Source: Marivita sp. (GTDB lineage Bacteria; Pseudomonadota; Alphaproteobacteria; Rhodobacterales; Rhodobacteraceae). From it: 60,563 bases of DNA. The notes beneath the pieces are model-generated. The model made no database searches, was not told where the DNA came from, and saw nothing but the letters and a program-made list of their open reading frames with translations. Where the stretch lies: positions 1 through 60,563 of the forward strand of contig NZ_JAIPUT010000023.1 of assembly GCF_020055635.1 (NCBI RefSeq). The letters run 5' to 3'. Both the position numbers and the translations under genes were made by a program. Shown here piece by piece: positions 34,191 to 37,338 of this stretch (the first letter of the stretch is position 1; each line of letters opens with the position of its first letter).

Positions 34191-35162
34191 CTAGGCGTTT
34201 GAAATACCGTCCATGATCCGGACCAGTTCGGCGCTGATGCCGGGTTCGGACAGGGCGTGCCCGGCATTGCGCACCATGCGCAGATCGCATTCAGGCCAGG
34301 CCCGCGCCAGTTCCCACGCGCGCAAGGGCGGGCAGATCATGTCATAGCGTCCCTGCACGATGGCACCGGGAACCCCCGAAAGCCGATCCATGTTCTTGAG
34401 GATCCAGCCGTCTTCCTCGAGAAACCCGTCATTGATGAAGTAGTGATTTTCAAGCCGCGCGAACGCCCGCGCATAATCGCCGGGAGATTCGCCGCCGGAT
34501 CCGCTGGAATAGACCGACGCCAAGGCGTTCTCCCAGGCTGACCAGGCGCGGGCGAACCGGGTCTCGATGCGCAGGTCACCGGAAAACAGCCGTCGATGGT
34601 AAGCCCCGATCAGGTCGTCACGTTCGTCCTCGGGGATCATGTCGACAAACCGCGCCCAGGTTTCCGGCCAGAACTGCCCCGCCCCGCCGCCATAAAACCA
34701 GTCCAGCTCGGCCTTGGTCATGGTGAAGACACCGCGCAGCACCAGATGGCGCACCCTGTCGGGATGGCTGATGCCGTAGATCAGCGCCAGCGTGGCCCCC
34801 CAGCTGCCGCCGAAGACGATGAACCTGTCGATGCCCAGTGTTTCACGGATCAACTCGATATCCGCGACCAGGTCCCAGGTGGTGTTGTTGCTGACGCTGG
34901 CATGCGGACGCGACCGGCCACAGCCGCGCTGATCGAACAGAACGACGCGAAACACCTTGGGATCGAAATAGCGCCGCATCGACGGGCTGCATCCGCCGCC
35001 CGGACCGCCATGCAGCACGATCACCGGGATGCCGTTTTCCGCACCGCATTGTTCGACATAGATCGTGTGCCCGTCCCCGACCGGCAGCATGCGCTGATCG
35101 TAAGGGTCGAGGGGGGGATAAAGGTACTGCACTGCGCGCTTTTGGCTCGGGAATTTATCCAT
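34191..35162 (-). CDS. pip: Prolyl aminopeptidase
   Basis: 323 residues from [16 protein letters not shown]; a TTG two codons upstream is less likely. Alpha/beta hydrolase, peptidase family S33. The oxyanion region is [18 protein letters not shown], the nucleophile elbow is [10 protein letters not shown], and [20 protein letters not shown] is typical of proline iminopeptidases. The acid and His lie in GRYDMICPP and NAGHALSEP. It removes N-terminal proline from peptides in the cytoplasm. It diverges from ubiG with a 50-bp gap. Confidence 0.94.
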
Positions 35163-35212
35163 ACCCAATCTATATTGGCACCGAATACCAAAAGACCATG
35201 GGGAAATGTTTC

Positions 35213-35956
35213 ATGACCGCCACGACAACTGTCGATCCGTCGGAAATCGCCAAGTTCGAGGCAATGGCCGCCGAGTGGTGGGATCCGAACGGCAAGTTCA
35301 AGCCACTGCATATGCTCAACCCCTGCCGGCTGGATTACCTCACCTCGCAGATCGCGGAAGAATTCGACCGCGACCTTGGACAAAACAGACCTTTCGATGG
35401 CCTGCGACTCCTCGATATCGGCTGTGGTGGCGGGTTGCTTTGCGAACCGATGGCACGGCTGGGCGCGACCGTTGTCGGCGTCGATGCCGCGGGTGGCAAC
35501 ATTCCGGTGGCGCAGGCACACGCGCGCCAGTCCGGCCTGACTATAGATTACCGCCACACCACCGCCGAAGCGATGGCCGAGGCTGGCGAAGCCTTTGATG
35601 TGGTGCTGAACATGGAGGTCGTCGAACACGTGGCTGACCCGTTGGCCTATTTGGCAGCCTGTCAGCGTTTGCTGAACCCCGGCGGGCTGCACCTGTGTTC
35701 GACGATCAACCGCACCGCCAAAAGCTTTGCCGCGGCCATCGTGGGGGCGGAATACGTCATGCGCTGGCTGCCCAGGGGCACACATGACTGGGCCAGATTC
35801 ATCACACCCGACGAATTGTATGACCTGCTGCGCAAGGCGGGGTTCGATCCGGTTGACCGCAAGGGGTTCCAGTTCAATCCGGTGTCGTGGAGATGGAGCC
35901 TGTCTGACCGCGATCTGAGCGTGAACTACGTCACCGCGTCCCTGAAACCGGCCTGA
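35213..35956 (+). CDS. ubiG: Ubiquinone biosynthesis O-methyltransferase UbiG
   Basis: 247 residues from [16 protein letters not shown]. It carries out both O-methylations of ubiquinone synthesis. SAM motif I is [38 protein letters not shown] at the start and [13 protein letters not shown] in the middle are UbiG signatures. The TGA stop at 35954-35956 is also the first triplet of the palindromic element at 35954-36061. The gene is probably monocistronic. Confidence 0.95.
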
Positions 35957-36061
35957 GCGGGAAGCCGCTTCGAAGCGGCTTGGACCAAGCGCGTTCGAAC
36001 ACGCTTGAAACGTGGTTTCGAAACCACGTGAGCAAGGCCCTTCGAAGGGCCTTCCCGCTCA
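35954..36061. repeat. Multi-palindrome element with four TTCGAA-centred hairpins
   Basis: An 11-bp outer inverted repeat, TGAGCGGGAAG (35954-35964) and CTTCCCGCTCA (36051-36061), encloses four consecutive palindromes centred on TTCGAA. They are at 35962-35981 (20 bp, perfect), 35986-36007 (22 bp, one mismatch), 36010-36029 (20 bp, perfect) and 36034-36053 (20 bp, perfect), with centres 23-25 bp apart. Their flanking arms differ in sequence (AAGCCGC, CAAGCGCG, ACGTGGT, AAGGCCC) while the core is constant. The outer repeat begins with the stop codons of the convergent genes ubiG and marR on each strand. No T-run follows. It may end transcription from both sides, or be a mobile or protein-binding repeat; I do not recognise it as a named family. 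Confidence 0.9.
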
Positions 36062-36508
36062 ACTCCGGCTGTCCGGCTCTTCCAATTTGACGCGCAGCTC
36101 GCGCAGAACCGGGATCGCCGCGCGCACCTTGGCGTCGCCCAGCTCGGACACCATCTCGGTGATCAGGGGCGTGATCGCAGCAACCGCCGCGTCGCGCGCC
36201 GCAAGGCCCGCGGGGCTGATCGACACCTGTTTGCGGCGGGCATCGTCCCAATCCGGGCGGATATGCACATAGCCGGCCGCTTCTAGCTTACCCAGGGTGT
36301 TGGTCATCGCGCCGCGCGTGACGTGAAACGCCTTGGCCAGTTGCGCCGGGGTCTTTTCCGATCCACCCCGGGCCAGCTGATTGAGTACTGAAAAGTGCGA
36401 GATCTCCATCTTGTTGGGCAGCACCCGCGTCAGGCGATTCCGCAACAGCTGATCCGCCGTCAGCAATTCGCTGAACAGGGAAATCGCAAGAGGGCTGCTG
36501 TCGCTCAT
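36059..36508 (-). CDS. MarR-family transcriptional regulator
   Basis: 149 residues. Winged helix-turn-helix dimeric repressor fold: ISHFSVLNQLARGG forms the first helices, TPAQLAKAFHVTRGAMTNTLGK (first 20 residues suffice) the recognition helix, and PDWDDARRKQVSISPAG the wing with the conserved DxR. MarR proteins are usually derepressed by small phenolic or oxidised ligands. The start overlaps the nitrilase stop (ATGA), so the two are co-transcribed and MarR may regulate this group. The stop lies on the outer repeat of the multi-palindrome element. Confidence 0.9.
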   Translation of the reverse strand: MSDSSPLAISLFSELLTADQLLRNRLTRVLPNKMEISHFSVLNQLARGGSEKTPAQLAKAFHVTRGAMTNTLGKLEAAGYVHIRPDWDDARRKQVSISPAGLAARDAAVAAITPLITEMVSELGDAKVRAAIPVLRELRVKLEEPDSRS

Positions 36509-37338
36509 GTCGGACCGGAATACACTCTGTCATGTTCCAAAGAGGGGATTTTCCGGCGGGCTTTCGCCACGTTGGACAGATCGACGTCAACCAGGTGAAC
36601 CCCGAAGCGCTGGTCAGCATCCAGCAAGACCTCGCCCCAGGGCGACACCGCCATGGAGTGCCCATGCGTGGTACGCGGTTTGCCGTGGCTGATGGCATGT
36701 TGGCCGAATTGCGCGGGAGCAAGCACATAAGAGCCTGTTTCGATCGCACGGGCGCGCAGCAGCGGTTCCCAATGCATCGGACCCGTCGCCGGGGAAAAGG
36801 CCGCGGGCACCACAATGATCTCGGCCCCTGCCTGGGCCAGCGTACGGTAGAGATAGGCGAACCGTACGTCATAGCAGATGCTCAGACCGATGATTCCAAA
36901 CGGTGTCTTGGCCGTCACGGCCCGGTCGCCCGGCTTGAACCCGGCGGATTCCCGGAACGTCTCGGTTTCGGTCACCTGGACATCGAACATGTGCAGCTTG
37001 TCGTAATGCGCGGCGATCGACCCGTCCGGCGCAATCAGGAAAGACCGGTTCAGGAACCGCTCCTCCGGCGGTTCGGCCTTGAGCGCGAGCGACCCGATCA
37101 GGAGCCAGATGCCCAGCCGGGCCGCCTCGTTGCGCAGGCCCTGCAATGTCGGGTCATCGACCTGACGGTGCAGGACATCGCGCTGGTGGCTGCGGCTGTT
37201 GCTGACGCAATTGGTGACCTCGGGTGTGACAATCAGCCCGGCCCCTTCGGAGGCAGCATTGCGCACAAGATCCGAGGTGACCCGCAGATTGTCCTGCGGA
37301 TCATCCGACGACGAAAGCTGAAGCAGCGCCGCCCGCAT
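36505..37338 (-). CDS. Carbon-nitrogen hydrolase (nitrilase superfamily, NIT1/NIT2-like)
   Basis: 277 residues. The Glu-Lys-Cys triad is Glu40 (VTPEVTN), Lys114 (HYDKLHMFDV) and Cys155 (GLSICYDVRF). LHMFDV and the YDVRFAYLYRTL segment place it with the NIT1/NIT2 and omega-amidase branch, which hydrolyses deaminated glutathione or alpha-ketoglutaramate. It follows glutaredoxin GrxC, which fits a thiol or glutathione repair role. The stop overlaps the marR start. Confidence 0.9.
   Translation of the reverse strand: MRAALLQLSSSDDPQDNLRVTSDLVRNAASEGAGLIVTPEVTNCVSNSRSHQRDVLHRQVDDPTLQGLRNEAARLGIWLLIGSLALKAEPPEERFLNRSFLIAPDGSIAAHYDKLHMFDVQVTETETFRESAGFKPGDRAVTAKTPFGIIGLSICYDVRFAYLYRTLAQAGAEIIVVPAAFSPATGPMHWEPLLRARAIETGSYVLAPAQFGQHAISHGKPRTTHGHSMAVSPWGEVLLDADQRFGVHLVDVDLSNVAKARRKIPSLEHDRVYSGPT

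Follow-up and report, generated by a model that had tools for sequence, protein, structure and literature searches.

Hairpin arrays behind stop codons, among them one between ubiG and marR of Marivita sp., as a probable REP/BIME-like element of marine Rhodobacteraceae

The gap between the convergent genes ubiG and marR in the stretch of Marivita sp. DNA analyzed here (the window, 60,563 nucleotides, contig NZ_JAIPUT010000023.1) contains an array of four short hairpins with the common core TTCGAA. The best overall explanation, to which we assign a probability of roughly 0.6, is that this array is one copy of a dispersed, non-coding element of marine Rhodobacteraceae that resembles repetitive extragenic palindromic (REP) sequences and bacterial interspersed mosaic elements (BIME). 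Such an element would spread rarely, as folded DNA and by means of an enzyme that is probably not a Y1/RAYT transposase, and its copies would persist mostly in the space directly downstream of stop codons. Recognition of the folded DNA hairpin, either in a cruciform or in a single strand, would keep the arms complementary, perhaps aided by polymerase template switching inside the hairpin. Where they are transcribed, the hairpins would act as a 3' barrier, short of a full terminator, by which mRNA may be protected or attenuated.

Copies, layout and mobility of the family

A first, sequence-only reading of the window had predicted further copies in the same genome and in relatives, and they were found in both. 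Plain BLAST of the window's own genome (4.94 Mb, 192 contigs) returned many other copies, and a covariance model (R1) built from 16 four-hairpin copies of this genome located the family in at least 39 distinct places at E values of about 0.001 or better, with the best 150 of 3679 candidates scored. The family was present in all 17 genomes of the genus, the window's own included, in one of 20 other genomes of the same family and in none of 24 genomes from other families. The best named matches of UbiG come from Marivita, and three named Marivita records share the sequence directly downstream of ubiG with three genomes of the genus. By this downstream sequence, M. hallyeonensis corresponds to G015, and its copies are weaker. 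A sample of Rhodobacteraceae with one genome per genus contained it in at least 25 of 295 genomes, judged from the best 14 candidates per genome. The arrays of other genera mostly have the same hairpin order and spacing. Among the open-licence papers listed in literature searches, no title or abstract opening names such a family in Rhodobacteraceae.

The layout was compared in 156 distinct arrays (38 from the window's own genome, 60 from the same genus and 58 from other genera), which include orthologs and are not all independent; two-hairpin arrays were retained only when both hairpins were perfect. Four hairpins were present in 109 arrays, three in 28, two in 12 and five in 7, and the centers of the first and last hairpin were 71–73 bp apart in 96 of the 109 four-hairpin arrays. 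Perfect pairing over 8 bp was observed in 519 of 579 hairpins. The arms came in 125 different sequences, and 546 of the 579 loops had the form T-NN-A. AAG started the arm in 238 of 354 perfect hairpins. Common to the copies are the layout, the AAG foot and the TTCGAA core; the arms vary. The arms of the four units in the window, described earlier as unrelated, fall into types that are specific to their position and are found again in other copies. Position 3 (hairpin C), for example, starts with ACGCG or CCGCG in most copies aligned. In one genome of another genus (G018, L302-L309), seven of eight arrays had three hairpins and one had two, and some of the loops were unusual (CCAC, TGAA, GTGA); these arrays possibly represent a subfamily that is scored low by the model.

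A GCGGG-like spacer is common on both sides of the arrays. At positions +1 to +5 behind array-side stop codons (n = 109 to 101), G, C, G, G and G were found at frequencies of 59, 56, 53, 54 and 55%, compared to 38, 41, 26, 25 and 29% behind 80 ubiG stops. An outer stem built by the two flanks was considered and rejected, because left and right flanks paired no better than with shuffled partners. For the same reason, GCGGG/CCCGC is best regarded as a composition bias.

The proposal that the array is a mobile palindromic repeat gained support from G075 (genus g60, 6 contigs), in which eight strong arrays were compared and weaker matches exist. Two of the eight (L180 and L181) had the same 91 bp between unrelated flanks, indicating that the family moves, and their identity ended approximately at the feet of the hairpins. 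Five more arrays differed from these two and among themselves by 3 to 13 bases; for the eighth array the figure was 23 to 28 bases. Two five-hairpin arrays of the window's own genome (L141:1501-1610, C58, and L142:1501-1611, C59) lie in segments that resemble each other over 389 bp (84%). Four of their hairpins are identical, and the fifth is swapped for a different perfect hairpin. Judged from the sequences, this difference appears to be the exchange of a whole module. The Y1 transposase (PF01797) was absent from 13 of the 17 genomes of the genus and from 21 of 24 other carriers, and no match was found in G075; it was present in four genomes of the genus, including that of the window, and in three of the other carriers.

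Arm complementarity, placement and alternative explanations

Among 16 arrays of the window's own genome, 99.2% of 512 cells were paired and 19 of 32 pairs had two-sided changes, with only 2 one-sided and 4 unpaired cells; none of 500 shuffles reached these values. Since this compensation is largely between different loci, identical loci were also compared between species. At three loci (TetR, GST and fumarase), 13 four-hairpin arrays out of 14 selected were compared in 22 pairwise comparisons. Stems differed at 4.5% of positions and linkers of equal length at 44.7% (217 positions, with 11 linkers of unequal length left out), a contrast that is exaggerated because arrays were picked as recognizable and decayed copies were excluded. 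Four-fold codon sites of the neighboring genes differed at 38%, and in comparison with these sites the linkers look neutral and the stems held. Within the loop, the two middle bases differed at 19.3%, whereas no differences occurred in the outer T and A. Among 704 comparisons of orthologous pairs, 13 were fully compensated and 35 were changed on one side; by eye, four separate compensated changes were recognized, three of which were transversions. These patterns argue that pairing is kept by selection where arrays survive. They agree with the earlier idea of selection on structure and not on letters, and the arms do show compensation at orthologous loci.

If folding of the RNA were selected, arrays transcribed in one direction should tolerate G.U pairs on the transcribed strand. 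On the sense strand of codirectional arrays, 1680 pairs contained 4 G.U, 5 A.C and 16 other mismatches; 1520 pairs of convergent arrays contained 7 G.U, 7 A.C and 4 other mismatches. The small number of G.U pairs favors a constraint that acts at the DNA level or is strand-symmetric, and the strict Watson-Crick pairing suggests that folded DNA, and not RNA alone, matters. We therefore rank DNA structure ahead of RNA structure as the selected feature, with mRNA protection or attenuation as a possible by-product. Tentatively, the family could be a mobile element defined by DNA structure, that is, a string of hairpins with strict Watson-Crick co-evolution of the arms and a near-invariant T-NN-A loop. 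In this proposal, the enzyme recognizing the folded DNA would not belong to the known REP transposases, whole hairpins would be swapped, and the host would make use of the arrays at gene ends.

The position of the arrays relative to genes was assessed for 113 arrays with both neighbors called by codon usage (43 of 156 without confident context were omitted). The neighbors were convergent in 54, codirectional in 56 and divergent in 3 cases, compared to 13 convergent, 29 codirectional and 12 divergent gene pairs in the window. By the letters of their flanks, two of the divergent cases (L175 and L185) look like frame miscalls. In the third (L159:1501-1592), AAGGAG...ATG precedes the array and looks like a start from which translation would enter it. 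Of 197 stop codons facing an array, 133 were located at a distance of -3 to 12 bases and 178 at -3 to 30 bases, with 6 and 5 bases as the commonest distances. The expected preference for gene ends, including those of convergent genes, was thereby recovered.

A two-way terminator, which had been suggested for the window array, does not hold as a general rule. Rho-independent bidirectional terminators are symmetric hairpins between convergent genes with a T-run after the hairpin. In contrast, the arrays contain several hairpins, and T-runs are rare in their tails (n = 124), with at least four T in the first six bases in 4 and at least three T in the first five in 10 tails. Moreover, an array lies between the fumarase alpha (PF05681) and beta (PF05683) genes with GGAG and a start codon directly after it, and a strong terminator between two subunit genes is unlikely. 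A role as stabilizer of 3' ends is possible.

More broadly, the arrays might be RNA-level elements of 3' ends, in which folding of the RNA is selected and the hairpins either block 3'-to-5' exonucleases or, assisted by Rho, terminate transcription in both directions. The location directly behind stop codons, in nearly half of the cases between convergent genes, and the C-rich sequence downstream of arrays are compatible with this explanation. In addition, both strands of the window array are predicted to fold into highly stable RNA (z = -6.93 and -6.65). A further parallel is Br-REP1 of Bradyrhizobium and Rhodopseudomonas, which was first found in overlapping 3'-untranslated regions (3'-UTRs) of convergent genes, where RNA-seq suggested complementary small RNAs (PMC5082802). 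The rarity of T-runs and the copy between the fumarase genes argue against an RNA element, as do the lack of preference for G.U over A.C on the sense strand and the unbiased array direction in codirectional context (13 arrays ran with transcription and 17 against it; 12 were not called). RNA hairpins would also be expected to favor GNRA or UNCG loops, whereas the loops of the family are mostly T-NN-A. Taken together, we consider selection for RNA function alone doubtful.

A selfish relic without host function, with arms kept identical solely by polymerase template switching in the hairpins, is unlikely. Template switching was reported to homogenize the arms of inverted repeats (PMC8604942), and the two-sided changes, the predominance, among the compensated changes recognized by eye, of transversions, which have no G.U intermediate, and the many decayed or lost copies would fit such an origin. 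However, homogenization alone would be expected to let the stems drift almost neutrally, whereas they changed about tenfold more slowly than linkers and eightfold more slowly than four-fold sites, even if these ratios are inflated by the choice of recognizable arrays. A protein that binds double-stranded DNA and reads AAG and TTCGAA would account for the conserved AAG...CTT foot and TTCGAA center, but such binding sites are very improbable because the variable positions between foot and center would need no complementarity, yet are complementary, and because the middle of the loop varies more than the stems.

The array in the window and its home locus

The features of the ubiG-marR junction are listed in Table 1. 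Re-reading of the sequence agreed with the earlier description of three perfect 20-bp palindromes and one of 22 bp with a single mismatch, the latter being hairpin B with one further pair counted (35986-36007). Each 20-bp unit consists of an 8-bp stem and a TCGA loop. The TTCGAA cores start at 35969, 35994, 36017 and 36041, so that the spacing of about 24 bp resolves into center distances of 25, 23 and 24 bp. The gap between the two stop codons comprises 102 bases, 92 of which (35962-36053) are the four hairpin units with short linkers. The outer 11-bp inverted repeat TGAGCGGGAAG (35954-35964) / CTTCCCGCTCA (36051-36061) is exact and does start with the two stop codons, as had been described. 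Only TGAGCGGG/CCCGCTCA is extra in this repeat, because the inner AAG/CTT forms the foot of the outer hairpins; TGAGCGGG is a recurrent edge in copies of the family.

Table 1. Features of the ubiG-marR junction (positions in the window)
Feature	Position	Strand	Remarks
ubiG-like methyltransferase gene (flank)	35198..35956	+	convergent to marR
ubiG stop codon TGA	35954..35956	+	belongs to the host gene, outside the element; in 15 relatives that have no intact array, ubiG ends at a similar position
GCGGG spacer	35957..35961	+	from stop codon to first hairpin; recurrent edge of the repeat family (edge-composition count)
Hairpin A	35962..35981	none	AAGCCGCT-TCGA-AGCGGCTT, perfect
Hairpin B	35987..36006	none	AAGCGCGT-TCGA-ACACGCTT, one C.A mismatch on + (G.U on -)
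Hairpin C	36010..36029	none	ACGTGGTT-TCGA-AACCACGT, perfect
Hairpin D	36034..36053	none	AAGGCCCT-TCGA-AGGGCCTT, perfect
CCCGC spacer	36054..36058	-	GCGGG mirrored; separates hairpin D from the marR stop codon
marR stop codon TGA	36059..36061	-	
MarR-family regulator gene marR (flank)	36059..36508	-	convergent to ubiG

Chance is a poor source of such arrays: in 40 random 60.6-kb sequences with the dinucleotides of the window, such hairpins occurred 8 times as a pair and never as a run of three. The ubiG loci of 80 relatives (522,407 bases) yielded 3 pairs and likewise no longer run. The window contains no excess of TTCGAA itself, with 18 occurrences against 17.98 expected. A terminator scan of 35000-37000 returned no terminator, and the sequence confirmed the reported lack of a T-run at the array. 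Seven matches in an Rfam scan with E values up to 5 were all far below the gathering cut-offs (best 23.7 versus 67 bits). The array had no match among the plasmids and phages searched, and one exact 20-mer from it had none in IMG/VR.

The ubiG-marR junction could be read in 15 of 16 relatives from the same genus. None of the 15 has an intact array, and the ends of both genes lie roughly where they do in the window. The suggestion that the element supplies both stop codons was rejected on these grounds. In G016, the gap (L119) contains a decayed three-hairpin array that resembles hairpins B, C and D and is orthologous to the window array; its hairpin B has a T-A pair where the window has C.A. 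Lost or decayed arrays were also found in other species at the TetR, GST and fumarase loci. At the TetR locus of G016 (L225), hairpins B and C appear by eye to be fused by a deletion inside the array, which is a possible route for changes in hairpin number.

Relation to known elements and implications

The best label for the family is a REP/BIME-like mobile palindrome without REP tags, and in the portions of the literature that were accessible, the nearest described system found was Br-REP1. It consists of three palindromes in a row in intergenic regions, with the central one at about 200 sites, and its abundance depends strongly on the species (PMC5082802). Both systems share consecutive palindromes in alphaproteobacterial intergenic regions and an association with convergent genes, and by our reading the central palindrome CCGGAATC-TCGA-GATTCCGG of Br-REP1 also has an 8-bp stem and a TCGA loop (PMC5082802). 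However, it has the fixed consensus CCGGAATCTCGAGATTCCGG, whereas the arms are variable here, and when compared via this published consensus its arm occurred in none of the 519 perfect hairpins. The searched text of PMC5082802 does not mention compensation or covariation of arms. The same source reports the terminator stem-loop BjsR3 in Rhizobiales and Rhodobacterales including Phaeobacter, which by its description, as a stem-loop at transcript ends in Rhodobacterales, provides a lead.

Like the family described here, which consists of short extragenic palindromes in many copies, REPs of the GTAG and CGTC types are short dispersed palindromes. They are located mostly downstream of genes, often close together, and between unidirectional and convergent genes (PMC3733652). 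In general, the copies of a REP are described as closely alike and as sharing a consensus (PMC12306157). Within 6 nt of the foot, GTAG was found in 7 and CGTC in 26 of 579 hairpins, fewer than expected by letter shuffling (16.7 and 35.2, respectively). A further difference from GTAG-type REPs is that the Y1 transposase (RAYT) is missing in most carriers; CGTC REPs are also said to lack a dedicated transposase (PMC3733652). Outside bacteria, the double-hairpin elements of fungal mitochondria are mobile, consist of two hairpins and keep their pairing by compensating changes.

Several observations weigh against a mobile, DNA-structured element as the explanation. At the home locus, no array was seen by eye in 14 of 15 relatives, and at the TetR locus it was lost in many species, indicating that its function is not essential; the benefit of the array is not universal. 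The case for the DNA level rests on few mismatches, and the finder, which requires Watson-Crick pairing at 6 or 7 of 8 positions, would miss G.U-rich hairpins. Neither RNA nor DNA energy parameters favor the preferred loops, and in the predicted RNA folds of both window strands hairpin A pairs partly with D instead of four separate hairpins being formed. At the identical copies in G075, no target-site duplication of the kind that marks miniature inverted-repeat transposable elements (MITEs) was visible by eye, no systematic search having been made. No mobilizing enzyme was found. The genome of the window does contain three matches to Y1 (PF01797), so that this transposase could play a part in some lineages.

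Whether hairpins in DNA or in RNA are the target of selection is a standing question for REP-like repeats, which this family makes directly testable: it combines clean compensation of the arms and very little G.U with a series from perfect to decayed arrays at the same site in sister species. Moreover, the structure model can be used to annotate unlabeled intergenic regions in Rhodobacteraceae.
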